This document shows positions 1,454 through 43,232 of a DNA stretch of 47,732 nucleotides, piece after piece. Numbering within the stretch: position 1 is the stretch's first letter; the number at the start of each line of letters is the position of its first letter. Source of the stretch: a virus; the IMG/VR virus record IMGVR_UViG_3300012964_000001, positions 64,001 through 111,732 of that record. One strand, given 5' to 3'. A model generated the notes under the pieces. The model did not search any database and was not told the origin of the DNA. It was given only the letters and a program-made list of their open reading frames with translations. Both the position numbers and the translations under genes were made by a program.

Positions 1454-2143
1454 CTATGATGCGCGAATGATGCGCGTCGTGTTGCCTGAAAAATCGCACG
1501 GTACGACCAGTGCATCTCCGTTGGCGAGCAGCGCAACCGAATTTGCGTGGTCGTGTGAGAACGCCGGGACGACCGCGGGACGCCATCCGGCTATCGCATT
1601 CCACCGCCAAAGCGTGCGTTGGTTGCGGTAGGATGATCCGGGTATCAAGCACATTCCACCCTTGAGATACAAGTCATTTGCGTCGGACCATAGGGTCTCC
1701 CAAATCGCCCCCACCGGCGCGGTATGGGCTTCGACCTCGACCCAAGTGGTACCATCAAACGTCCAATGATCATCGTATACCGCAATAATCTCTCCCGGAG
1801 ACGAGTATCGACCGCCATGAACAACGTGAATCTTGCCGCCGAACACCGGTAGCAGACGTCCAAGTTCAGCGCGCGCAGTGCCCGGGAAATCTGCGAGCTT
1901 GGTGAAGTTGAATCCGCCGTCTAGCGAACGGAAAACGTGCGGAGTGGCTGTGTTTCCGTCTGCCTGACTCGTCTGCCCGAACATGCAATAAATTGCTCCG
2001 TCGAGCACGGCCCACGAGCACTGCCAATGGTCGTTGAATTCTTCCTCACCAGTCGTAGTCTCGACCCAGGTCGCTCCGTCCGTGGTACGGAATAACCGAG
2101 ACCCAGTGTCGTTGCAGACCCCGGCGTACATGTACTCAGTCAT
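1454..2143 (-). CDS. Beta-propeller (BNR/Asp-box) tail-fibre segment
   Basis: The 229-residue product carries Asp-box-like repeats, LFRTTDGATW near the start and VFRSLDGGFNF about 50 residues on, as in sialidase-type beta-propellers that bind or cleave glycans. It begins 6 nt after the stop of the preceding fibre frame, with only a weak GGA ribosome site. That preceding frame ends in another Asp-box repeat (HRSDDNGRTW), so the propeller appears continuous across the stop. The two frames are related by -1. This may be a coupled second gene, a recoding site or an indel. The likely role is receptor binding at the tail. Confidence 0.7.
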   Translation of the reverse strand: MTEYMYAGVCNDTGSRLFRTTDGATWVETTTGEEEFNDHWQCSWAVLDGAIYCMFGQTSQADGNTATPHVFRSLDGGFNFTKLADFPGTARAELGRLLPVFGGKIHVVHGGRYSSPGEIIAVYDDHWTFDGTTWVEVEAHTAPVGAIWETLWSDANDLYLKGGMCLIPGSSYRNQRTLWRWNAIAGWRPAVVPAFSHDHANSVALLANGDALVVPCDFSGNTTRIIRAS

Positions 2144-2148
2144 TCGGT

Positions 2149-3606
2149 TTATCCGATCGTCAACGCGAACCCAGCCACGCCATCGGAGGCCACGAACGGC
2201 ACTATCTGGGTGATTTGCTGCCAAGTTCGCCCATTGTCGTCCGAGCGGTGCACGTCATTGTTTGGGATCGACCGCAGGACCGCTCCGCCCAAGACCCAAT
2301 TTGCGCCTTGGAACCGGCACGCTCCAGCGTCATCCTTGTAGGTCCAAGGCGCTCGGTGCGGGTAGGTCAAAATCTCGACGCCGTCGTGCGTGACGTAGCG
2401 CTCGACGGCGGATGCTCCACCGGACCGACCGATCATGGCCAGTGCTTTTTGCACGAGTGCCGCCTCGTTAAGCGCGGAGTCGAACACGGCCCATTCGCGC
2501 GCTGCCACCGAGTTGCCACCGAATCTCACGCTCGCAATCGTTCCGGTAGAGACGGCTGACGGACCCGCTACCAGTTCGACTCCGTCTGTGCAATCATAGA
2601 TCGACACGCTACCACCGGAGCGCACTGCCGCGACCACTCTCCAGCACTCGTAAGGATATCGCACGTCGTCAGCCGCCTTCGCTCCGGTCACGCCGAGTAC
2701 ACCGGCATAGACGTGCGGCGCCGAATCGGACCCGGAAGCATCCACCCCAATCGTAAAACCGTTCCCGGCTGATGCAACGGCTTCGAACCACTGATCGGGA
2801 AGACCCTGCATCCAAAGCACCCGGACCAGTCCCATGACCGTCACCGGAGCATCACCACTCAGCGCCGCATTAAGCGCCGCGTACTCTCCCCCAACGTGCT
2901 TGTGGTCGTATCCGTCGGCAGACCAGAGTATTGCCCGCGCAGGTACCCAACAGGGGAACTGCGAAGTCCCATCGGCAGCCTGGTAGAGTGGCGCGTCTGC
3001 CAACGTTTCGGTCAGGTGGTAGGCATTGCCACTCACGTCCGCAACGGTCAGCGCATGATCCTGCAAGACTACCGGCACGTTCGGCACCGGGCACAAGTAC
3101 CAACCTTTGGTCGGGTCGTTCGGTGAGTGGCCCCATTCGACCTCGTCGCCCAGCGTGAACAGAACGCCTTCTCGAATCGCATAGCCGTTGCAAACCCAGA
3201 ACTTGTATTGCGACCACCCAACAGTCAGCTCGGTATGTATCCAGTGAACCGAATCCGGGCCATAATTGTCGGCGCTGAGTTTGGTAATCGACCCGTCTCC
3301 GTTGAACCGACAGATGGGCACACCGGACGAAGAGTTCAGATAGAGGCATCGATCCCCAATCGACTTGCCACAGAACTCAAGGACAAGAGCTCCACGAGCG
3401 AAGTTCGTCGCCACGCTGATCGAGTCGATTCTCGGGTACGATCCGCCCTCGTTTTCGAGCACTCGCGTGGCCGTGGTGCCGCTGTAAGGGTCGACAAATC
3501 CGGCAGCCGCCGTACACCCTGAGGTCGTCCAGAGCGCGAAGTCCGGAACCGATGCTACCGTGCGCTCAGCGTTCTCCGCTGACCAATGGGCCAGCGGAAT
3601 TATGCT
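2149..3606 (-). CDS. Tail-fibre extension frame, probably reached by -1 frameshift
   Basis: This frame continues from the slippery site at the end of the upstream fibre gene. It reads SIIPLAHWSAENAERTV and onward for 485 codons. Coding character is clear from the first codons, yet there is no ATG, GTG or TTG before the GTG at 3462, which is 48 codons in and has no ribosome site. The start of the segment (FALWTTSG, GFVDPYSGTTATRVLENE) resembles the carbohydrate-binding-like beta-sandwich of the upstream product. The middle is a lectin/concanavalin-like region and the end is an Asp-box strand. Read through the frameshift, the fusion would be about 753 residues. Confidence 0.7.
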   Translation of the reverse strand, partial: SIIPLAHWSAENAERTVASVPDFALWTTSGCTAAAGFVDPYSGTTATRVLENEGGSYPRIDSISVATNFARGALVLEFCGKSIGDRCLYLNSSSGVPICRFNGDGSITKLSADNYGPDSVHWIHTELTVGWSQYKFWVCNGYAIREGVLFTLGDEVEWGHSPNDPTKGWYLCPVPNVPVVLQDHALTVADVSGNAYHLTETLADAPLYQAADGTSQFPCWVPARAILWSADGYDHKHVGGEYAALNAALSGDAPVTVMGLVRVLWMQGLPDQWFEAVASAGNGFTIGVDASGSDSAPHVYAGVLGVTGAKAADDVRYPYECWRVVAAVRSGGSVSIYDCTDGVELVAGPSAVSTGTIASVRFGGNSVAAREWAVFDSALNEAALVQKALAMIGRSGGASAVERYVTHDGVEILTYPHRAPWTYKDDAGACRFQGANWVLGGAVLRSIPNNDVHRSDDNGRTWQQITQIVPFVASDGVAGFALTIG

Positions 3607-3612
3607 AAAAAA
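3575..3612 (-). promoter_or_regulatory. Programmed -1 frameshift signal in a tail-fibre gene
   Basis: On the minus strand the zero frame reads GGT TTT TTA GCA TAA. It contains the canonical slippery heptamer T TTT TTA (3606-3612) two codons before the stop. A 7-nt spacer leads to an inverted repeat at 3575-3598, with arms TCCGCTGGCC and GGTCAGCGGA and loop CATT: 10 pairs, one of them G-U. Heptamer, spacer and stem match the known architecture of -1 recoding signals. The -1 frame is open for 485 codons. Confidence 0.75.
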
Positions 3613-4409
3613 CCGTCACACTGATAGAGGTAGATCACCTCAGTCCCATTGGTTGGGAAGTTGTCCGCAACTTCCGTCGTACAGATCCCAATGTGCGCCA
3701 CGTCCCCAGTGAGCCCCGCCGTCCAAAACAGCCACCAATCCGGGTCTTTGGACGATCGAATCGCCCCACCGGGAAGGCTGCCTGAGCCGTGTGTCACTTG
3801 GCCCGTGTACGTATTGAGCCGGTTGTAGGTCGCGCTCGCGCTGCGAATCCTAGCGTAGCCCGCGTCCGCATGAACGCGAACCATGATGCCCTCTAGTCCC
3901 GTCCCAGCGTTGGTGCAGAATCCGTACTGCCCCGCGGAAACTCCTGCTGCCACCTTTTCCGCGGTGTAGGTGCCTTCAGGGTCCGTCACGTCCGTCGTGT
4001 TGGCGTACACTGTCCCGACAAGAAAACCATGGGGCCACGTTTCAAAAGCGTTGGCGCCGTACTCGAGTGCGACCGGCGTCATCCCAGGGATCACAACCAG
4101 ATTCCAGGGGACGCCGACCAGGCTCACGCCGCCCGCCTCCGACCAAGCCCAGGCGTAGAGCGTGATTGCCCCCGAGAGGGCCGTCGTGTGCATGCGCGGC
4201 TGGCCCGCGAGCGTCCACGTCTCATCGTGTGTCGGCTGCGCAGCGCTCTCAGTGACCGTCCACTGTTCAGCGTCGGCGGATAGCGTCGCTGTGCATTCGA
4301 CTGTCTCGTCGGAGAGCTCGGCAGCGGCGAAGGCGTCGACCGTAGGAAGCGGGGCTGAGGCTCCGCCGCTTCCTCCTAGCCCGAATCTGAATCCGAATCC
4401 AAAACCCAT
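3600..4409 (-). CDS. Tail fibre/adhesin, zero-frame product
   Basis: The 269-residue product begins with a Gly/Phe-rich tip (MGFGFGFRFGLGGSGG). An Ig-like beta domain follows (about 25-105), then a beta-sandwich region (about 110-265) with aromatic-rich strands such as PDWWLFW, typical of carbohydrate-binding-like folds. A GCGAGG ribosome site lies 5 nt from the ATG. It ends CDGFLA followed by TAA, with a slippery T TTT TTA just before the stop, so it is probably made in two lengths. It follows a beta-helix fibre gene. The role is inferred to be receptor recognition; no close named family is recognised. Confidence 0.7.
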   Translation of the reverse strand: MGFGFGFRFGLGGSGGASAPLPTVDAFAAAELSDETVECTATLSADAEQWTVTESAAQPTHDETWTLAGQPRMHTTALSGAITLYAWAWSEAGGVSLVGVPWNLVVIPGMTPVALEYGANAFETWPHGFLVGTVYANTTDVTDPEGTYTAEKVAAGVSAGQYGFCTNAGTGLEGIMVRVHADAGYARIRSASATYNRLNTYTGQVTHGSGSLPGGAIRSSKDPDWWLFWTAGLTGDVAHIGICTTEVADNFPTNGTEVIYLYQCDGFLA

Positions 4410-4436: not shown

Positions 4437-6236
4437 TCATATAGTGCGTAGTTCTATCGTCCTGTCGAAGTCAATGGTAGCCCGAGCCTTGCACGCGACT
4501 CCCGCTGGGCGCGTGATACTGACGGTTAGTACGTTATCATCCACCGCAACGTCCATCGTCGGTTCAAAGCCTGCGGGTAGCCTCGAGTAGTCCGGCACCG
4601 GTGTCGTGTTCAAGGATAAGGTGGCGTCGCCGTCACCATCGGTCGTCACTATGACATCAAGCGCGCAGCTAATTGACCCCTCTTCGGTAACGCTCCACAC
4701 GTGCACATCGATGTTGATCGGAGCCAAAAAGCGTTTTGATGCGGGGAATCCCGTCACGGTCCAGGTCGCTACCGCGATCGGCGCATCGGTACTCAGACTG
4801 ACGTCAGTCCATGGACTCGGTCCCACGATGCCGGCCTGTACCAGTTCGTTCCAGTACGGATACTGGGACCACGACATTGCGTCATAGACCGGGTATTGCG
4901 ATACCGCAAAGTCTCCTAGCGCTCCGGTTATACTGGGTAACGATGGTCCTCCGGCAACCAACACCATACGTGAGCCTTCCGCAAAAAACGCGCCAAGGTG
5001 AAGATTTCCCTTCCCCATGATGCGACCGACGGCGCGCACTGTAATGTTGGCAGTGGGAGTTAGATTAATGGCGGGCTCACCGATAGGCGCATCCCATACC
5101 CCAAGTGGTACATAGAACGAACAAGTTCCCAAAATACTCAGGGTGGTTGATTGGATGATTGAATAGAGTAAATTGCATACACTTACACTAAACCCCAGTC
5201 CCCCAATTATTGCAGACGTATACACCCCGACGGGTATCTGAAATCCTTGCACATTCACAAACCCTGTTGGTACAAAACAGGATCCGTAGACATTAATATT
5301 TGCGAGTCCAGCTTGTAGCCTACAGGCCAATATCGATGGTCCGCCTCCGGAATCAACAAGGCCAGTGAGGGCAATATTCGGCAGCGCACAATTCCGAAGC
5401 TGGCCTCGGTTCCATAGTCGGGTACCCGTGATGTAAGTCAGTGCAGGAAGATCCTCAACTACTACTTCGTCGCCAGCTTCCCACGGAGTGCTTGCTTCTG
5501 TTCCGACTGCTTCGGGAATGAGTACTACGGGCCAGCTAATCCGCGCGACATTGAGGCCGAGACTATTTGGATTGGCTTTGACGATCCAACAATAAGCGTA
5601 CTGCCGAGGACCCGACGTGATACGGACTCGTTTACCGATATAGGGCGTCATATCTGAGACGCCAGAGAGCGTAAGTAAGAACCACTCATTGTCTAGGTCC
5701 GACAGCGCTGTGTAGGTGCCGACAACAGTCGTCAAAACCGTCGTTGTCGCCAGACGCCCATCAATCGCCAAAATCGATCCGACCGCAAGGTTGGCGGTTT
5801 CCGCTAGTACAGCGCCACCGGCAAGCAGATAGATAAACGTGTTCTGAGCGATAATCGTTCCACGTAGGCGTCGGGTGACCTCTTTGATGGTACGCAGTGG
5901 CGAACCCAGCGTACCCAGAGCTTCGTCGTCGCCGGTGCTCGGATGAACGTACCACTCAGTTTGGATCGCCCACGGATTGGCCTTGTCGAGCGACATGGAC
6001 TGCCGCATCCACTTACGGCCCGCTTCGGAGCTCGCCACAACCTCTTCGTCGACTGCGGCAGCAGCGGTCGTTTCGAGCACAAACAGGCACTTGATCGTTG
6101 CGACCCGGACAACATTTCCGTCGGGCCAGAGTGCAGTCGGCAGTGCGGTCAACGCAGCCAGGTTCTCGACCTGGTACTCATGGAACCCGTATCCTTGGCC
6201 GATGCGTTCAACGTCGCCTGTGAATCGGACTGCCAT
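4437..6236 (-). CDS. Beta-helix tail fibre
   Basis: The 599-residue protein has an N-terminal segment ending in a Trp-rich boundary. A right-handed beta-helix-like region follows, opening with WYVHPSTGDDEALGT and a proximal strand series. This block is clearly paralogous to the central part of the 985-residue collagen-like fibre, which has YINASTGNDENLGT at the matching place and a shared GVSxxxPYI and VARxSWW pattern. The C-terminus is a separate beta domain. GGAG lies 9 nt before the ATG. Nucleotides about 5101-5280 inside the gene are much more A+T rich than their surroundings, suggesting mosaic origin. It probably forms a receptor-binding or depolymerase fibre; no catalytic site was recognised. 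Confidence 0.7.
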   Translation of the reverse strand: MAVRFTGDVERIGQGYGFHEYQVENLAALTALPTALWPDGNVVRVATIKCLFVLETTAAAAVDEEVVASSEAGRKWMRQSMSLDKANPWAIQTEWYVHPSTGDDEALGTLGSPLRTIKEVTRRLRGTIIAQNTFIYLLAGGAVLAETANLAVGSILAIDGRLATTTVLTTVVGTYTALSDLDNEWFLLTLSGVSDMTPYIGKRVRITSGPRQYAYCWIVKANPNSLGLNVARISWPVVLIPEAVGTEASTPWEAGDEVVVEDLPALTYITGTRLWNRGQLRNCALPNIALTGLVDSGGGPSILACRLQAGLANINVYGSCFVPTGFVNVQGFQIPVGVYTSAIIGGLGFSVSVCNLLYSIIQSTTLSILGTCSFYVPLGVWDAPIGEPAINLTPTANITVRAVGRIMGKGNLHLGAFFAEGSRMVLVAGGPSLPSITGALGDFAVSQYPVYDAMSWSQYPYWNELVQAGIVGPSPWTDVSLSTDAPIAVATWTVTGFPASKRFLAPINIDVHVWSVTEEGSISCALDVIVTTDGDGDATLSLNTTPVPDYSRLPAGFEPTMDVAVDDNVLTVSITRPAGVACKARATIDFDRTIELRTI

Positions 6237-6239
6237 GTT

Positions 6240-7529
6240 TTAGATCTCCAAAACTCCGTGAGGTCGCGTCCCTCCGTCCTTCAGCGCGATCAAGTCGGCT
6301 CGGACGTAGGGAATGCAGTTGTCCTGGTGCCACTGACTGGGCCAGCAGTTCTCCAGCAAAGCTGGCATGAAGCGCACGGTCGTGTTGTCGATGTACTGGG
6401 CTTGCTGGGACCGCGTGACGTACCAGAAAGCATTACGGTTCCAGCGCGACACATGCGTCGGGTCCTGGTCGGCGCCCATGCCGGCCTCGCCATTCGGTCC
6501 CGTAGTGCTGGGGGTCTGCGACAAGAGATAGCCGCCATGGCGAAGCACGCGGTGAATCTCCCGGAGCGAATGCATCTTGTCGGCGATGTGTTCGAGGAAA
6601 TCGAAGGCTCGCACCACACCGACCTCTCCGTCTTCGAAGGGGTAGCGTGCATTCAGGTCCGCAACGACTCCGGGTCCCGTCTGGTCCACCGCCGTGTAGC
6701 CCTTGGGGCATCCGAAGCGGCCCCCTAAGTCGATCATCTTCCAGCCCGCCCGACGCGCTTCGGCTTCGACCATCGAGTACAGGTAGGTCCGCTGAATGCG
6801 CCGCGTGTTCTGCTGGATCTCTCCGTTACGCTTGATCCAAGCGTTCTCTCCATGCACTCGGTAGAGGTAGCCGCATCGATCAATGTGGTAGAAAGGACCG
6901 ACCAAAAAGAGCCGGCACATCAGATCCTGATCGTCCAGGACCGAGAGGCTTTCGTTGTAGCCTCCAGCTGCGTCGTATGCAGAGCGCCGAAACGCCCGAA
7001 TGTGGTTCGGCGCGTACCAGATCAGGCTCGCGTGGTAGGCCGTCGGCGGAGGAGCCAAGATCTCCAGGTAGCGGCGTCCCTGATGCGCAAACTCCAAGTA
7101 CTCCCAACCATTCGTTGTACCGTAGGTGCGTGGGGACCCATCGGAGTCGTTGAATTCCGCGCAGTTCGAATAGACGAGCGAGATATCGGGGTGATCGTCG
7201 AATGCAGCTCCAACATCTTCGAGAATCCGCGGCATCAGCAGATCGTCGTGGTCGACCTCGACGAGCGCCTCTCCGGTGCAGGCTTTGCACGCCACGGACT
7301 TCAGAGTTCCGATCTTTGCCTTGCCATCGGAGCTCAGCGCTAGGTCTGATGGGGCTTCGATGAGGCGCACGCGGCTATCCGCGAGCATCTCGTCCGGGAA
7401 GGCGTCGCGTTTCGCTTCGCCATTGAGCAATACGACCCACTCGTGCCAGGTCTGAAAGCGGAGCGAAGCGTAGAGCTCCGCCATCCACCGCGGGTCGTGG
7501 GTGGCTGTGAACAGCGACAGCGTCGTCAT
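6240..7529 (-). CDS. Glycosyltransferase family 2 / SAM methyltransferase fusion
   Basis: Of 429 residues, about 1-235 form a GT-A glycosyltransferase. It begins with the TLSLFTATHD strand, has the metal-binding DHDD motif at 93-96 and the acceptor-side GGYNESLSVLDDQD at 189-202. Residues about 262-400 resemble a class I methyltransferase: the MIDLGG glycine strand at 265-270, then FDFLEHI and EIHRVLRHGGYL, a pattern common in family-11-type methyltransferases. It overlaps the stop of the collagen-like fibre gene (TGATG) and precedes a fibre gene, so it is co-expressed with adhesins. It may modify virion fibres or host surface glycans; the substrate is unknown. Confidence 0.85.
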   Translation of the reverse strand: MTTLSLFTATHDPRWMAELYASLRFQTWHEWVVLLNGEAKRDAFPDEMLADSRVRLIEAPSDLALSSDGKAKIGTLKSVACKACTGEALVEVDHDDLLMPRILEDVGAAFDDHPDISLVYSNCAEFNDSDGSPRTYGTTNGWEYLEFAHQGRRYLEILAPPPTAYHASLIWYAPNHIRAFRRSAYDAAGGYNESLSVLDDQDLMCRLFLVGPFYHIDRCGYLYRVHGENAWIKRNGEIQQNTRRIQRTYLYSMVEAEARRAGWKMIDLGGRFGCPKGYTAVDQTGPGVVADLNARYPFEDGEVGVVRAFDFLEHIADKMHSLREIHRVLRHGGYLLSQTPSTTGPNGEAGMGADQDPTHVSRWNRNAFWYVTRSQQAQYIDNTTVRFMPALLENCWPSQWHQDNCIPYVRADLIALKDGGTRPHGVLEI

Positions 7530-9304
7530 CAGGTTACGCGAACTTCAATCGCGAGGTTCGTCCCGGTGAGCAGGTAGGTGGTCTCGTAGACCGAGCACGT
7601 GCGGTCGACTCCGTTGGAATTCGCCACAACCAACGGTCTGACGTCGAGCATGTCGACCCCGATTCCATCGAGCCAGAACGTGAGGGCTCCGTAGGTCTGG
7701 GGCGCCACGAAGTAGACCTTCTCGTTGATGGGGCTCACCGTAATGGTCCGCGCGGCGGAGCTCGCCAAGATGTTGTTGCCGAGCGCATAGACCTCGGACT
7801 CCTCGTCGATCCCCGCGGGGCCTTCGCCCCACCAGAGGTCTCCGGTCCACAGGATCTGGAAGTTTCGGGTTTGCTCGGTCGCGCCGTAGGCGGTGACCGA
7901 AACCGTCATCGTCGGGTCTGCGCCGGCGTCGGAGCCGTCGCGGCGTACCGAACCCGCCAAAGTGGCGGAGGTCCACGGGTCGTCGAAGGTCCAGATCCCG
8001 GGGTCGATGTCGCCGCCCCCCGAGCTGCCGCCGAAGGTGTGATTGATGTCGGCGTCTGTCGGTGGGCCCGTCACGTAGACGACGGACGCCGCCACCCCAG
8101 TCAAGGTGTCTCCGCGCCGGTAGGTCAGGACCGCCCCATTCGGCGCCGTCTTCTCCACCGTCAGGCTGAAGGCCGGTGCGATCATGTCCAGCGTGAGCGG
8201 GATTTGGATGATCGTCCCGGCCTCGAGCTCAATTGGCACCGAATACTGCACACCCGTTGGCGTGAGCTCCGCCGCGCCCTGTACACCCTGGACACCCTGG
8301 GGACCCTGGGGACCCCCGGGTGTGCCCTGGTATCCCTGGAAGCCCTGCGTACCCTGAATACCTTGTGCCCCATCGAACCCTTGAGGACCAGTATCTCCTG
8401 GATCTCCTTGACTACCCGTGTCGCCTTGGGCGCCGGATATACCCTGCGCACCTGTATTTCCCTGGAAACCTTGGTTGCCCTGGAATCCTTGGCTCCCGGT
8501 CGAACCTTGCGTCCCCTGCTGTCCTACCGCGCCTTGTGCCCCTGGAGCTCCCTGCGGCCCCGGAGTGCCGGCGGTCCCCTGCGGCCCGGAGTCACCAATG
8601 AATCCCTGGTAGCCTTGGTATCCACGGTTGCCTTGGGATCCTTGGAAGCCCTGGAAGCCCTGGAAGCCCTGCTGCCCTTGTGCACCTGGAGTTCCCTGGA
8701 ATCCCTGAGCGCCATCATCTCCCTGGGCTCCCTCATCTCCCTGGAATCCCTGTGGTCCTCCGAAGTCTCCCTGCGGACCCTGCGTCCCCTGTCCCCCTTG
8801 GGTCCCCTGAACTCCCTGATGACCTTGCGTGCCCTGCGCACCCTCTGAGGTCGCGACGTAGGGATAAACCGTCCTGTCATCGCGCATGAAGGAACGAAAT
8901 CCAGTCGTTGCGTCCAGGAATTCTGTCGTACCTCCCGGAGTCACCGGAATCTGATCTGGATCCAGAGGCAGGAGCCGGGTGTGGCTCACCGTCTCCATCG
9001 GCGCCACGGTTGTCACCGAGAGCGTGATCGAGTAGACGGTGCCCTCGTCAGTGACTGAGAAAACGAAGCTACCGTTGACGTCAGGGCGGAACGTCGGTGC
9101 TGTTTCGCTGCTACTCGACAGGTAAGCTCGTGCTGCCGAACTTCCCTCGGGACGCGCCACGGACCACTCATACTGCACAAATGGAGGCGTTACGGAGAGA
9201 AGTATCTCTTCGTCCCGTGAGTAGCCGCCACGCACCAAACCCGACGGCTCAGTCTCGGACGCATCCATCGGCACGGTGGCCGAAATCGCTAGAATGCCTG
9301 ACAT
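7529..9304 (-). CDS. Collagen-like tail fibre (GXQ repeats)
   Basis: This 591-residue protein has an N-terminal beta domain (1-154) and about 65 Gly-X-Y triplets (about 155-354) with two phase breaks (near GDFGGPQG and TPGGPQG). A C-terminal beta domain of about 237 residues, probably a trimerising or binding head, ends it. The Y position is overwhelmingly Gln (GFQ, GTQ, GAQ), not the Pro/Lys of animal collagen. Phage collagen-like regions are known to form trimeric fibre shafts. The upstream fibre gene has a similar shaft. The start is coupled to the previous stop four nucleotides upstream. Confidence 0.85.
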   Translation of the reverse strand: MSGILAISATVPMDASETEPSGLVRGGYSRDEEILLSVTPPFVQYEWSVARPEGSSAARAYLSSSSETAPTFRPDVNGSFVFSVTDEGTVYSITLSVTTVAPMETVSHTRLLPLDPDQIPVTPGGTTEFLDATTGFRSFMRDDRTVYPYVATSEGAQGTQGHQGVQGTQGGQGTQGPQGDFGGPQGFQGDEGAQGDDGAQGFQGTPGAQGQQGFQGFQGFQGSQGNRGYQGYQGFIGDSGPQGTAGTPGPQGAPGAQGAVGQQGTQGSTGSQGFQGNQGFQGNTGAQGISGAQGDTGSQGDPGDTGPQGFDGAQGIQGTQGFQGYQGTPGGPQGPQGVQGVQGAAELTPTGVQYSVPIELEAGTIIQIPLTLDMIAPAFSLTVEKTAPNGAVLTYRRGDTLTGVAASVVYVTGPPTDADINHTFGGSSGGGDIDPGIWTFDDPWTSATLAGSVRRDGSDAGADPTMTVSVTAYGATEQTRNFQILWTGDLWWGEGPAGIDEESEVYALGNNILASSAARTITVSPINEKVYFVAPQTYGALTFWLDGIGVDMLDVRPLVVANSNGVDRTCSVYETTYLLTGTNLAIEVRVT

Positions 9305-9307
9305 GGT

Positions 9308-12265
9308 TCACCCGTAAGGCATGAAGATTCGAATCTTGCGAGTCAGCATCCAGTCGGTCGATATTGCCGCGCTTGGTTGGATCTGAAGACGCATCGTATG
9401 GTTGTCGGCGACCTGCCAAAATGTACTAGGATCGCCACCCATACAATCCGCGATGAGCGCCGAGTAATCCATAATTAGTACGTTTGCCGGATACGTAAAG
9501 GTGTAATGAACCTTCCAGGTTCTGGACCCAGAAGTCACGCCACCGGTGATATATGGTGTCTGCAGCACTGCCTCGATATCAATCGAAGCACCCAATCCAG
9601 CCGGGAAGAATATGAATCCTCCCAGGGTCCCGAGCTCCATGTTCCACTGTACCGCGCTTATGGTCGCCGTCCGCGCCACCCAGCAATCTTCGAATAACCC
9701 GACTATGGGGGCGTTTCCACCACCGGGAATGATGTTGAGCTTTCCCACATAGCTCTGCCGGAGCCTAGACGCAGAGACCCCACCCGCTGCCCCGTCCAGC
9801 GTCCAGTGCTGAACTCTTCCGGTCGTCGTCGGCGCTACCGCCGTGTAGGCCGGAGCGGTCAACGCAAGCAGCCCGTACTGATTGGCACGCAGAATGGCAT
9901 TGCCGGTGACGAAGATCCCGGTGTGCTTATCGACCCCGAGCTGCACCGATTCGGACCACGTCAGGTATTCACCATGGACGCGCACATCACCGCCCGTACC
10001 GGTGATCGTCGGCGTCAACGCCGGGACCTCGAGAATCGCCCCACTATCCACCCACATCCCACGCTGCGCATTGCCGTTGCCGAAAATCCCGGTGTTATTG
10101 ACGACCTGATTGTATCCGCTCACCAAGATCACGCCGTAACCCAGAGCTCCGGCACTATCTGCCACCATGCTCTGGTAATTCCAGATCAGATCCGAACCCG
10201 AGATGTATCTGTATTGACTCAGCACGGAAGCCAGAGTGCATCGTGCTGCGGTGAGCGAATAACCACTCGTCCCGCCGGTTAGGCATCCGACGACGTCAGT
10301 GTCGGTAACATGGAATATAGCCCCCTGACCGCGCAGATAGCACTGATAGAGCTTCGGACCTCCGATAATCTCGGTGGCGTTGATCCGGCATCCGTAGAAC
10401 GCGCTCTTGGCGGTCCCGGAGGTCGTTATCCCAACCTTGGTGTTCGCCGTGCCGACGCTGTTGATCGTCGCGTTCGCGATGATGACTCCCCATTGGGAAT
10501 CGGTCGGAAGCGCGGCTTCGGATACGACATCGAGCGCCACGTCCGTCAGGTTGCCCAAGGTCTCGATGACGAGCGTACCGCCTACCGCCGGTAGGGCGTT
10601 CGTCGCACCGGTCGGAGCTAGAGCCGTGATGCTATTGGTCGCCATGCTGGTCCACCAGGACATGCGCGCGACCGAGTCACCAGTGCCGTGCGGATTCTGA
10701 AGGGCGATCCAGGAGAGCGCCCCGAGGTTAGTACCGCTCGTGAGCCGCGCCCGCATTTCTATGTAGGGCAGGAATGTCGAGACTCCGCTACAGGAGAGCG
10801 TGTTGAATTCGTGCGCCGCCGGATTGATTGTCGCCGCAGCACTTACGGTCAGGGATGCCTGAGTCGTAGCCGCCGTCGCCATATCGAGCACGACCATGCC
10901 GAGCGGACCCAGATGGATCTTCCCGCGAATAGCGCCGAGCGCTGTCATGCCGTACACGGTGATGAGCCGATTGATGCGCTGGTGGTTCCATCTGCGCATC
11001 AACTCGTCCCAGCTCTGTAGCGGTACCCCTGAGGTAGTTCCTAGGTTCTCGTCATTCCCCGTCGAAGCGTTGATGTAGAAGGTGCTGAATTCGGTCCAGC
11101 GCGTGTGGCCGGTGAGCTTACGGTGCCAACGCGCCGTTGCCGACGCGCCGGCTTGCACGATGAGGCCAACGATCGGAGTATCGCTGGAGTTGTTCAGCAA
11201 CTCCCAGAGGTCCTGATGGCTGCCGACGAAGCAGAGCTGCCCATCGGTGAGCCCTGCGTAGGCCAACGCGTTGAGCGCGGCTTCGTTGATCGCGTAGAGC
11301 ACGGACGGAGGCCCCTGGGGGCCCTGGAAGCCCTGCGGTCCTTGCGCTCCGGCGGTCCCCTGGAAGCCCTGGACGCCCTGGGTGCCCTGATTCCCTTGGA
11401 AGCCCTGAGTCCCCTGGAAGCCTTGGGTTCCTTGCGCGCCGGCCGTGCCCTGCGCGCCCGCGGTCCCCTGTGAGCCCTGGAAGCCCTGGAAGCCCTGAGT
11501 GCCTCCAGTCCCCTGCGTGCCCTGAAAACCTTGAGAGCCCTGGGAGCCTGCAGTCCCCTGGGTCCCTTGGAAACCCTGGAAGCCCTGGAAGCCCCCACTG
11601 CCGGCTGTTCCCTGGAACCCCTGAGCACCCTCGGTACCCTGAGCCCCCTGAGTCCCTGCTGTGCCCTGCGTGCCCTGAGCGCCCGCGTAGCCCTGTGTAC
11701 CCTGAGCGCCCGGCGGACCCTGGGGGCCGACTTCACTCTCGGTGTCGGTCACGGCCGGCCGCCGGCAAATCGTCAGATTCCCCTCAGGGTCGAGCGTTCC
11801 GAGCGGGTAGTCGCCGACCGAATAGACCGACACGGCCTGCGCCCGCGCCGTCGCGGTGTTGACCTTCACGAACTGCGGGACGCCGGGCTCTGCGAGTCCG
11901 TGAATGACCCACGGCAAGACCCCATCGAGCGCCCCGAGAATCCACGCCCCCGGCGCGCACACCCTCATCGCAATGCCGGCGGCCATGCCGGCGGCGAGTA
12001 TCGTCGATGCGGTCACCCGTGTGACGGTGCGACCCAGCGGATCAGACTCGCTGACGACGAAGACATCTCCAACCGCGAGCCCCGAGCTCCCGATGGACAG
12101 CTGGTACCACGTGCACGTGACGCCGCCGAGCACGCAGTCCACGACCTGCCGCTCGGTCCCGAGTATCTCGTCGTCGATCAGACGCCGATCGGCGTTATCG
12201 AGCTGATAGTTCGCCGGCAGGACGACCGGATCGTCGACCTCTCGGTCGCTTAGGATTTGGGACAT
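9308..12265 (-). CDS. Large collagen-like and beta-helix tail fibre
   Basis: The 985-residue product has an N-terminal domain (1-179) that probably attaches to the baseplate. About 47 Gly-X-Gln triplets follow (about 180-321), then a linker similar to the N-terminal part of the 599-residue fibre, and a beta-helix-like body starting near FYINASTGNDENLGT. The C-terminus is a beta domain ending in IFMPYG. It is the largest adhesin in the window and probably the main receptor-binding or polysaccharide-degrading fibre, although no catalytic residues were identified. The gene starts 3 nt after the preceding fibre gene, in a tightly packed fibre operon. Confidence 0.8.
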   Translation of the reverse strand: MSQILSDREVDDPVVLPANYQLDNADRRLIDDEILGTERQVVDCVLGGVTCTWYQLSIGSSGLAVGDVFVVSESDPLGRTVTRVTASTILAAGMAAGIAMRVCAPGAWILGALDGVLPWVIHGLAEPGVPQFVKVNTATARAQAVSVYSVGDYPLGTLDPEGNLTICRRPAVTDTESEVGPQGPPGAQGTQGYAGAQGTQGTAGTQGAQGTEGAQGFQGTAGSGGFQGFQGFQGTQGTAGSQGSQGFQGTQGTGGTQGFQGFQGSQGTAGAQGTAGAQGTQGFQGTQGFQGNQGTQGVQGFQGTAGAQGPQGFQGPQGPPSVLYAINEAALNALAYAGLTDGQLCFVGSHQDLWELLNNSSDTPIVGLIVQAGASATARWHRKLTGHTRWTEFSTFYINASTGNDENLGTTSGVPLQSWDELMRRWNHQRINRLITVYGMTALGAIRGKIHLGPLGMVVLDMATAATTQASLTVSAAATINPAAHEFNTLSCSGVSTFLPYIEMRARLTSGTNLGALSWIALQNPHGTGDSVARMSWWTSMATNSITALAPTGATNALPAVGGTLVIETLGNLTDVALDVVSEAALPTDSQWGVIIANATINSVGTANTKVGITTSGTAKSAFYGCRINATEIIGGPKLYQCYLRGQGAIFHVTDTDVVGCLTGGTSGYSLTAARCTLASVLSQYRYISGSDLIWNYQSMVADSAGALGYGVILVSGYNQVVNNTGIFGNGNAQRGMWVDSGAILEVPALTPTITGTGGDVRVHGEYLTWSESVQLGVDKHTGIFVTGNAILRANQYGLLALTAPAYTAVAPTTTGRVQHWTLDGAAGGVSASRLRQSYVGKLNIIPGGGNAPIVGLFEDCWVARTATISAVQWNMELGTLGGFIFFPAGLGASIDIEAVLQTPYITGGVTSGSRTWKVHYTFTYPANVLIMDYSALIADCMGGDPSTFWQVADNHTMRLQIQPSAAISTDWMLTRKIRIFMPYG

Positions 12266-24639: not shown

Positions 24640-24880
24640 GGTCGTCGGGCTGCAGCGTTGTTACGGTCTTGTCGTCGTCGCGTGGTGTAAATTCTCGATC
24701 CAGGAGCTGGTCGAGGCTTGCTACGAAGGATGCACGATAGAACCCCGTCCACTTCCGGCTTTCCGACGGCGGGACTCCACCATAACGAGCGATGTAGGCC
24801 TCGATCTGTACCTGGCTAAAGTATCGCTCCCAGTACTCTCCTGGTCGTCCACGGTACCACTTCAGACGACCTGAATCGCT
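24620..24880 (-). CDS. Tail assembly chaperone T extension (made by -1 frameshift)
   Basis: This frame has no ATG, GTG or TTG start, so it is invisible to start-based gene finding. It is open from the slippery site for 86 codons, beginning SDSGRLKWYRGRPGEYWERY and ending in an acidic tail (DDHADSED). Translation entering by -1 slippage in GGGAAAA joins residue 151 of the upstream protein to these 86 residues, giving a fusion of about 237 residues. In lambda the equivalent G-T fusion is needed for tail assembly; the same arrangement occurs widely in phages with long tails. The J-like gene overlaps its last 20 nt. Confidence 0.85.
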   Translation of the reverse strand, partial: SDSGRLKWYRGRPGEYWERYFSQVQIEAYIARYGGVPPSESRKWTGFYRASFVASLDQLLDREFTPRDDDKTVTTLQPDDHADSED

Positions 24881-24886
24881 TTTCCC
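24843..24886 (-). promoter_or_regulatory. Programmed -1 frameshift signal in the tail assembly chaperone
   Basis: The zero frame reads ATG GGA AAA GCG, giving the slippery heptamer G GGA AAA at 24880-24886, one base different from the lambda site GGGAAAG. After an 8-nt spacer there is an inverted repeat with 7-bp arms GGTCGTC (24865-24871) and GACGACC (24843-24849) and a 15-nt loop that holds the zero-frame TGA stop. Heptamer and hairpin together form a standard -1 signal. Confidence 0.85.
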
Positions 24887-25332
24887 ATCAGCTCCTGAAC
24901 CTCACCATAGGTGATGTGGTGCAGTTGCGCGTAGAGCTGCTTCAATGCCTCGAGGTCCTTAACCTTCAGAAGCCCACCGCCTCCGGCCTGCATCAGCTGC
25001 GCATTCATGCGCTTGAACTTGACCTCCTGCAGCGCGGGGTAGTTCTTGGGGTCGACCGGATGCTCGGAGACCTCGACCGTGAACCGGTTGGCTCCGAGCC
25101 GCTGAATGGATTTCTGAAGCTTGTCGACCCATTGGGCGCGCTCCCACTCATTCTCTCTGCCGACCGGGGGCGGACCCGCCATCGTGTTGGCGGTGTTTTC
25201 GAACCCTGCGATCGTCTCTTCATCGAGTTCTCGGAAGCGCACGACGCGCCCCGAGAACCCGAATCCGCACAGATGCACCTGGTAAGAGGTGCCGCCATCC
25301 GTTGCCGTAACTTCGCTGACTTCCGCCTTCAT
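24862..25332 (-). CDS. Tail assembly chaperone (G-like), zero-frame product
   Basis: The 156-residue protein follows the tail tube gene and precedes the tape-measure region, the conserved place of the assembly chaperone. It has a beta-rich N-terminus, a central helical part (ERAQWVDKLQKSIQRL) and a C-terminal helix (DLEALKQLYAQLHHITYGEVQELMG). Five codons before its stop lies the slippery G GGA AAA. AAGGGAG is 9 nt from the ATG. It probably coats the tape measure before tube polymerisation. The longer fusion form is described with the extension frame. Confidence 0.8.
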   Translation of the reverse strand: MKAEVSEVTATDGGTSYQVHLCGFGFSGRVVRFRELDEETIAGFENTANTMAGPPPVGRENEWERAQWVDKLQKSIQRLGANRFTVEVSEHPVDPKNYPALQEVKFKRMNAQLMQAGGGGLLKVKDLEALKQLYAQLHHITYGEVQELMGKAIQVV

Positions 25333-25876: not shown

Positions 25877-27388
25877 TTAGGACGCCGTTACCGTGACGGT
25901 CTCGCCGAACTTCATGCTCAGGAAGATCTTGTCCATCCCGCTTGAGGTCTGGACGTCGAGCGGAACGATGAAGTTACCCTCGGCGATCGACTGCGCCGAG
26001 TTGGCCGCTGCTCGGTCTCCAAAGCCGTAGTCAACGACGTGCGGCATCTTCATCGGGTCTTGCTTCACGTTCTTCTTCAGATTCGCCATGAAGCGGTCGA
26101 CTGCGATCAGGACATCATCCTGAATTACCGTGACGTTCGGTGCCCCCGCGAAATCCCGCAGGCTGCTAACAATGCTGGTGGCGATGTAGTGACCGATGCG
26201 TGTGCGAGTGATGCGCTTCTTGGCCGGAGACGATGGTGCAATCGTCGTGACTCCACCCTCGATGCTCCATCCACCATTCGGCTCGGCGATGATGGTGTTG
26301 ATACCGCGTAGCGTATTCGATCCGGCGGCTTCTCCACGCGGCGTCTCGAGTGAGACAATGCCGTTCAGCATCTCGCGGATGAACGCGGCCTTGCAGGCCG
26401 GTGAGGTGGAGGGAGAAATCCTCGTCATGACCGAAGCCATGAAGGAGTCTCCGGGGACCAGTCTCAGCGTCCCATCGATGTCATCATGGATCCGGACCCA
26501 TCCGTCGACATAGGCGGCTTGCCACGACGAGTAGCCCGCGGTTGCAACGTCTGTCTGGACCAGAGCCAGTGTTAGGCCCGAGTCCCCATGCAGCAAAGCC
26601 ATCCGGTCTCCCATGAGGGACGAATGCGCCACGAGACCTGCCATGACAGCTGCGCGGTCTGTGTCGCCGGGGTCATCGGCAAAGCAGACGCGAACGTCAC
26701 GGTCACTCTCTGCAAGCGCTAGGCCATAGTCGCCAGCTCCTGGGGTTCCGAGATAACGCGCCGAGTTGATCGTGCCATCGGAACCACCACTGAACGTCCC
26801 CGTCCCATCTGTTGGGCGTCCGGTGTTCGAGCGGGTCAAGGATCCCAAGAGACGCAGTGAACTGGTCGTCGGATCGCTGAAGGTCGTCCCTGAAGCATCC
26901 ACGTTGTACAGAAGATCCGTGGTCGTGCCGCTTGCCCCAGTGATCGCAATCGCTAGATTGAAGTGGTTGGCATCGCCATCGCTGGCCGCGCTAATCGTCC
27001 AGGTAACGGCATTCCCTTCCGCTCCGACGTATTTCAGCGTAGCGACCAGGATGGTCGTCCCTCCGGTCACCAGATTGACCGTCGCCTTAGCGGCCGCGCT
27101 CCCCACGACGCGTACGGTCCGGAGGTCGTACCAGCCCTTTTTGAGCAGGGCGAGATAGCCGCTTCCTGTCCGGGTCATTCCGGGCGGCGCCATCGTCAAC
27201 GCCAAATCACCGATGTTGGTCGGGTGAAACGGCGTCCCCTGGTCTACCTGCGTAGGACCCCAAGGAAACTGACCCAAAAGCAACGCCGTCGCAGTACCGG
27301 CGGACTGCACCAGCGCCGGGGGCTCCCGCTCAATCGCGTAGATCCCCATCAACGTCGGAGTCGTGATGGATTCGACGAATACAGGCAT
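25877..27388 (-). CDS. Contractile tail sheath protein
   Basis: The 503-residue protein opens with the extended arm seen in sheath proteins (ESITTPTLMGIYAIEREPPA). An inserted beta domain lies at about 105-215 (TILVATLKYVGAEGNAVTWTI onward). The conserved C-terminal half includes AAYVDGWVRIHDDIDG, RGEAAGSNTLRGINTI, RITRTRIGHYIATSIVSSLR and the closing IVPLDVQTSSGMDKIFLSMKFGE, the strand that interlocks with neighbours. It establishes a contractile tail. GAGGG is 5 nt from the ATG. The tube gene follows. Confidence 0.9.
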   Translation of the reverse strand: MPVFVESITTPTLMGIYAIEREPPALVQSAGTATALLLGQFPWGPTQVDQGTPFHPTNIGDLALTMAPPGMTRTGSGYLALLKKGWYDLRTVRVVGSAAAKATVNLVTGGTTILVATLKYVGAEGNAVTWTISAASDGDANHFNLAIAITGASGTTTDLLYNVDASGTTFSDPTTSSLRLLGSLTRSNTGRPTDGTGTFSGGSDGTINSARYLGTPGAGDYGLALAESDRDVRVCFADDPGDTDRAAVMAGLVAHSSLMGDRMALLHGDSGLTLALVQTDVATAGYSSWQAAYVDGWVRIHDDIDGTLRLVPGDSFMASVMTRISPSTSPACKAAFIREMLNGIVSLETPRGEAAGSNTLRGINTIIAEPNGGWSIEGGVTTIAPSSPAKKRITRTRIGHYIATSIVSSLRDFAGAPNVTVIQDDVLIAVDRFMANLKKNVKQDPMKMPHVVDYGFGDRAAANSAQSIAEGNFIVPLDVQTSSGMDKIFLSMKFGETVTVTAS

Positions 27389-42849: not shown

Positions 42850-42937
42850 TGGCGGAATCTGAGCGATTCGAACGCCCAAGGCCTTGCGGCTCACCCGGGT
42901 TCAGGCCGGGCCCCGTCGCCAATCGGGTTGAGATTCC
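42850..42937 (-). tRNA. tRNA-Ser (anticodon UGA)
   Basis: Acceptor GGAATCT pairs with AGATTCC, followed by discriminator G and an encoded CCA. The D arm has three CCC/GGG pairs. The anticodon stem CCCGG/CCGGG holds loop CCTGAAC, anticodon TGA; base 33 is C, not the usual T. A long variable arm with GCC-GCAA-GGC marks a class II tRNA. The T arm has a TTCGAAT loop and stem GGGCG/CGCTC. It is 88 nt long, normal for tRNA-Ser. It probably supplements host UCN decoding. Confidence 0.85.
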
Positions 42938-43101
42938 GTGAAATCGGCTGTGGACTCCGGCGCCCACACTTGCGTCCTACCAGCGGGTGTCAGCCGTTCG
43001 GAACCGAATTCGAGCCCTCGACTGGTGCCGACCCAGTCCCCGGCGGGTACAGGCCGCCGGTCATCGCCGGATGGCGAGGGCTTGATTGGGCGCTCGCTCC
43101 T

Positions 43102-43151
43102 AGTCGGGCGCGGAGCAGTGGCCCTTTTAGCTGGTAGGATCTAGCCCGACT
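43102..43151. other. Inverted repeat in the tRNA spacer
   Basis: Between the two tRNAs (42938-43160) I find no gene. The only structure is a pair of 8-nt perfect arms, AGTCGGGC and GCCCGACT, enclosing 34 nt. The arms could pair like an acceptor stem, but there is no T-loop, so it is not called a tRNA. It may be a decayed tRNA or a processing hairpin. Confidence 0.35.
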
Positions 43152-43160
43152 CCCAGCCGG

Positions 43161-43232
43161 TCTGAGCCGCAGGGGTCGAACCTGCCGTGTCCTGGTCCCA
43201 AACCAGGCGCCTCACCCCGGGGCTCGGCTCAG
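43161..43232 (-). tRNA. tRNA-Pro (anticodon UGG)
   Basis: Acceptor CTGAGCC pairs with GGCTCAG, followed by discriminator A; CCA is not encoded (CCG follows). The D stem GCC/GGC encloses a GG-containing loop. The anticodon stem CCTGG/CCAGG has loop TTTGGGA with anticodon TGG. The T stem GCAGG/CCTGC has loop TTCGACC. All arms pair well and the length of 72 nt is normal. The host CCA-adding enzyme is needed for maturation. Confidence 0.9.

Follow-up and report, generated by a model that had tools for sequence, protein, structure and literature searches.

In the gene that ends the fiber cluster of a myovirus, we identified a sequence cassette that most likely directs a programmed −1 frameshift and thereby yields two adhesins, of 269 and 753 amino acids (aa). 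While we infer the slippage itself, its rate, and the presence of the products in the virion, we observed directly how the cassette is built, that no other start codon is available, that the coding frame changes at this point, and that the associated stem is rare. The cassette lies within a stretch of 47,732 nucleotides (the window), spanning bases 64,001-111,732 of a 111,732-base virus contig, which is a single metagenome contig. Nearly all genes of the first 42 kb of the window are located on the − strand, and a tail sheath gene (25877-27388) indicates a contractile tail. Downstream of the contractile-tail and baseplate block sits the fiber cluster, in which two collagen-like fiber genes (7529-12265) are followed by a 429-aa methyltransferase-like gene, a 599-aa gene, and finally the putative frameshift gene. 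The protein encoded within this cluster at 6240-7529 (− strand) combines a methyltransferase domain with a weak glycosyltransferase match, and it may modify fibers or surface sugars. Genes for tRNA-Ser(TGA) and tRNA-Pro(TGG) were found at 42850-43232 on the − strand.

Anatomy of the proposed frameshift cassette

The preliminary description of this DNA had reported a slippery heptamer close to a stop codon, followed by a short spacer and a hairpin, and this layout proved exact to the base. The cassette and its neighborhood comprise the following features:

4437..6236, − strand: 599-aa gene of the fiber cluster, the upstream neighbor, with homologs that precede the anchor gene in relatives
3600..4409, − strand: zero-frame open reading frame (ORF), 269 aa, with an N-terminal anchor (about residues 1-97, common to relatives) and then a module of no known family
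3606..3612, − strand: slippery heptamer T TTT TTA (X XXY YYZ, in zero-frame phase)
3600..3602, − strand: zero-frame TAA stop, separated from the heptamer by the single sense codon GCA
3599..3605, − strand: spacer GCATAAT, 7 nt
3575..3598, − strand: stem-loop, the proposed frameshift stimulator, about −19 kcal/mol
2149..3606, − strand: −1 frame extension of 485 codons, with a weak Laminin_G_3 match and a BNR motif near its C terminus
1454..2143, − strand: next gene, whose own ATG lies six bases beyond the −1-frame stop; marks the limit of the system

The 269-aa ORF starts at ATG 4409, preceded by GAGGTCACC, and at its end the zero frame reads GAC GGT TTT TTA GCA TAA on the − strand. The stem pairs 3598-3589 with 3584-3575 (10 bp, one of them G-U) and closes the loop CATT at 3588-3585, with an eleventh pair possible at its base (U3599-G3574). 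TTA, the A-site codon of the heptamer, accounts for 0.19% of codons and is the rarest leucine codon, and no Shine-Dalgarno-like enhancer is present upstream of the heptamer. The −1 frame contains a TGA just ahead of the heptamer (3618-3616) and is open thereafter until the TAA at 2151-2149. The 2149/2143 boundary was considered as a further −1 site and rejected, as the next gene has its own ATG and inspection of the overlap revealed no heptamer.

In the proposed mechanism, ribosomes would decode TTT and then the rare TTA, while the stem-loop, located 7 nt further on, would slow them down. A fraction of them would re-pair one base back, so that T TTT TTA is read as TTT TTT, and proceed on AGC ATA ATT, and unshifted ribosomes would terminate one codon further. 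The short product of 269 aa would consist of the anchor and one module, and the long product, a predicted transframe protein of 753 aa (268 + 485), would show lectin-like and BNR-like features in its 485 additional residues. Both products are proposed to reach the virion, where they would form a short and a long adhesin with a common attachment domain, and a fixed ratio between them could provide virions with two adhesin lengths.

Start codons and domains of the predicted products

As the preliminary description had noted, the 485-codon −1 frame has no early start: the first ATG, GTG, or TTG after the junction is GTG 3462, 48 codons in, which is not preceded by a Shine-Dalgarno sequence. The impression that these 48 codons look protein-like was borne out as well, since coding-like sequence is present upstream of GTG 3462, and a codon-usage segmentation that was blind to the site puts the change of coding frame at 3602/3603. 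These observations bear on the possibility that the distal ORF is a separate gene, translated by termination-reinitiation at a nonstandard start by the TAA (ATA/ATT, 3603-3598) or from GTG 3462. In a second phage (L024), the second part of the homologous gene has an ATG two bases past the stop (CTG CCC TTT TGA G ATG at 5010-5035), so that translational coupling is possible in this family. In the window, however, the absence of starts over 48 codons, the lack of a Shine-Dalgarno sequence at GTG 3462, and the coding character of the sequence upstream of it argue against such a reinitiation, which would also leave both stem and heptamer unexplained; we regard it as quite improbable.

We then looked for known domains in the two products. 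Searches of the short protein and the distal part against Pfam, PHROGs, and NCBIfam returned nothing beyond a weak Laminin_G_3 match in the distal part (E value of 0.0017, under the curated cutoff) and a single copy of the BNR motif, and a PDB sequence search gave no match. The AlphaFold2 models were too poor to use, also for a Foldseek search, with a mean pLDDT of 33 for the distal part and a pLDDT of 39 for the short protein, in which values above 50 were mainly confined to a small beta domain at residues 19-97. The designation of the two frames as a tail fiber in the preliminary description is sustained in part, by context: the gene ends the fiber cluster, its N-terminal domain recurs in relatives in genes at the corresponding position, and the distal part has the weak Laminin_G_3 and BNR features; neither part matches a named fiber family.

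Chance and control analyses

The same genome provides controls for the recoding hypothesis. Among the 19 same-strand joins of neighboring coding frames in the window, 17 have a start codon for the new frame, and the two that lack one are the cassette described above and a GGGAAAA tail-chaperone site:

24640-25332 (join 24866), − strand: tail-chaperone −1 site; the GGGAAAA heptamer lies five codons ahead of the stop in a 156-aa gene and is followed by an extension of 86 codons in the −1 frame

This 156-aa gene lies upstream of the tape-measure region, and both its heptamer and its −1 extension are conserved in a related contig (G002) and in a related 85-kb phage (G001), the latter of which has no copy of the frameshift gene. 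Since the start-less join at 24866 is a classic tail-chaperone site, the scan picks up a −1 site of a type already known. Elsewhere, the frames of the contig are intact; a generally poor assembly was rejected as an explanation because every other frame join except that of the chaperone has a start.

The stem itself is rare. The hairpin folds at −19.1 kcal/mol, compared with a mean of −6.1 for random 30-nt coding segments, of which 0.07% reach −18 kcal/mol or lower, and only 0.085% of synonymous recodings of the same peptide (n = 20,000) are as stable. Only 11 loci on the coding strand reach −18 kcal/mol or lower within the first 42 kb, which sets the chance of finding one at a spacing of 5-9 nt at approximately 0.001. 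In addition, we scanned 303 in-frame X XXY YYZ heptamers, covering the window and 100 kb of relatives (about 148 kb), and only in one of them, the cassette, does a strong stem occur together with an adjacent stop and a long open −1 frame. In G002, a GGGAAAA within a 442-codon frame was dismissed as a frameshift site, given that the gene that follows has a Shine-Dalgarno sequence and an ATG of its own. Taken together, the anatomy of the cassette and these controls give good support to the claim of programmed −1 recoding made in the preliminary description.

The same fusion would also arise if transcriptional slippage on the T6 run added one U to some mRNAs, which would restore the frame. Transcriptional slippage usually requires runs of about nine or more bases, though; moreover, it has no need of a downstream stem at ribosomal spacing. 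We therefore consider this route highly improbable.

Homologous genes in related phages

The comparison with related phages covered three nearly identical contigs (G002, G003, and G004, with loci L002-L004) and the second phage, L024. The first ~97 residues of the frameshift gene are 52-60% identical to gene starts in all four, and its position is the same in G002-G004, as the upstream and downstream genes match too. In G002 and G004, the anchor and a different distal domain are encoded in one 674-aa frame. This distal domain has no Pfam match and looks like a hydrolase, judging from its GxSGGG motif. In G003, which is 99.96% identical to G002 and G004, the homologous gene is interrupted by an in-frame stop at CCCTTTTTAG: the junction CCCTTTTTTTGACGGG becomes CCCTTTTTAGACGGG, which places TAG straight after C CCT TTT, and a −1 shift at this point would restore the G002 protein bar one changed residue. 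In L024, the homologous halves lie in different frames, split at TTTTGAGATG in the homologous place, and the second half could alternatively be reached by a +1 slip on TTT T before TGA. Since the junctions in these relatives lie elsewhere in the protein and lack a strong stem, they back a pattern at the level of the family and not the window's own site. The preliminary description had held that homologs with both parts in one continuous frame would refute recoding, and on this point the outcome is mixed: the parts are in frame in G002 and G004 but with a different distal domain, and they occupy two frames in G003 and L024, where the break falls in a T-run between the domains. This pattern is as expected if distal modules were swapped and re-joined in either frame. 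At position ~1769 of L004, a one-base deletion (GGCGCC to GGCCC) breaks the frame of the collagen-like fiber gene.

No homolog of the distal 485 codons was found in any collection searched. A tblastn search of both parts against annotated phages gave no match, the anchor was not found in GTDB genome contigs, and neither a DNA search with the region nor a search of viral contigs for an exact copy of the cassette gave a match, in collections that may omit records near the window.

A mutational origin of the frame break is the main alternative to recoding. As the window is a single metagenome contig, a one-base error or mutation from T7 to T6 would produce an identical break, and the two frames would then represent either one long adhesin gene, present as a mutant or phase-off allele and switched on and off by mutation instead of recoding, or a consensus error. 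The G003 allele shows, at the sequence level, that T-run changes do occur in the anchor gene family, as TTTTTAG at L003 6981-6988 replaces TTTTTTTG at L002 6981-6988 and breaks the homologous adhesin gene relative to G002 and G004. The three contigs differ at no more than 19 positions in 50 kb, and the only two indels among them hit the anchor gene and the collagen-like fiber gene; the T6 is one of just six A/T runs of at least six bases in the window. On the other hand, the loss of one base leaves unexplained why a stem that ranks among the top 11 in 42 kb lies exactly 7 nt away (~0.001) and why the heptamer is in phase (one in three). Furthermore, a run of six T residues is on the short side for slipped-strand switching and short-read error alike, and the rest of the contig holds no unexplained frame breaks. 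Because it accounts for neither the stem spacing nor the heptamer phase, we regard a one-base loss as unlikely and favor programmed frameshifting.

It is tempting to speculate that the junction between anchor and exchangeable distal module is a T-rich recoding point throughout this phage group, although we regard this generalization as doubtful. The length of the T-run and its context would then decide the fate of the distal module. It would always be attached in G002 and G004, which have T7; ribosomal slippage would attach it to a fraction of the products in the window, with T6A and the stem, and in G003, with CCCTTTT-TAG; and L024, with TTTTGAGATG, would make it as a protein of its own through coupled translation. 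Single-base changes would, in that case, set how many virion adhesins bear the distal domain.

Comparison with known recoding systems

The preliminary description had called programmed frameshifting rare for receptor-binding fibers. The mechanism is less isolated than this suggests, as there are well-known cases in which frameshifting adds an Ig-like or carbohydrate-binding extension to a capsid or tail-tube protein (PMC5009743, PMC6669499, PMC4281155), but we found no fiber case in the literature on frameshifting with tail fibers or receptor-binding proteins, a survey mostly at the level of titles and abstracts. Frameshift-appended adhesive domains on virion proteins are already well established, and what sets the present case apart is its site in a putative fiber gene.

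The closest parallels differ in the protein that is extended. In TpeX of the lactococcal 936 phages, a programmed frameshift appends a carbohydrate-binding extension, giving short and long forms (PMC6669499). The cassette described here would likewise append a putatively adhesive extension to a candidate virion protein, as suggested by the fiber cluster and the conserved anchor; however, TpeX extends the major tail tube protein, of which there are many copies, whereas here a fiber-cluster protein would be extended, by more residues than it has itself. SPP1 carries a frameshift-appended Ig-like domain (PMC6669499). According to a review (PMC5009743), the Ig-like domains of T3, A2, and the Listeria phages A118, A500, and PSA are surface domains gained through −1 or +1 shifting close to where a structural gene ends, and such domains are in frame in some phages and shifted in others, which the review credits to the chance landing of mobile domains; in the sections consulted, the terms tail fiber and adhesin are absent. 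The proteins extended in the Ig-like systems are major capsid or tail-tube proteins, in contrast to the putative fiber gene described here. In the major head protein of phiEco32-like phages (SU10, YF01), −1 slippage at GGGAAAG near the stop leads to a much longer isoform; a stem-loop is present in SU10, for which proteomics gave two head-protein forms of 38.5 and 55.4 kDa (PMC4281155, PMC9965538). This system parallels the one proposed here in its −1 slippage near the stop that yields a much longer isoform, and SU10 also in its stem-loop, but it acts on a capsid protein, with a different heptamer and a stem that overlaps the slippery site. Finally, the lambda G/GT-type tail chaperones use the −1 mechanism proposed here, and this phage has its own copy near 24,880 (GGGAAAA), but they are assembly chaperones with a short extension and no adhesin.

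Recoding is known for capsid, tail-tube, and chaperone proteins of phages. If our reading is true, one putative fiber gene would let the phage display two adhesin lengths, and automatic annotation would truncate such adhesins. The system would also be a tangible example in favor of the view that frameshifting rescues exchangeable surface domains which have landed out of frame.
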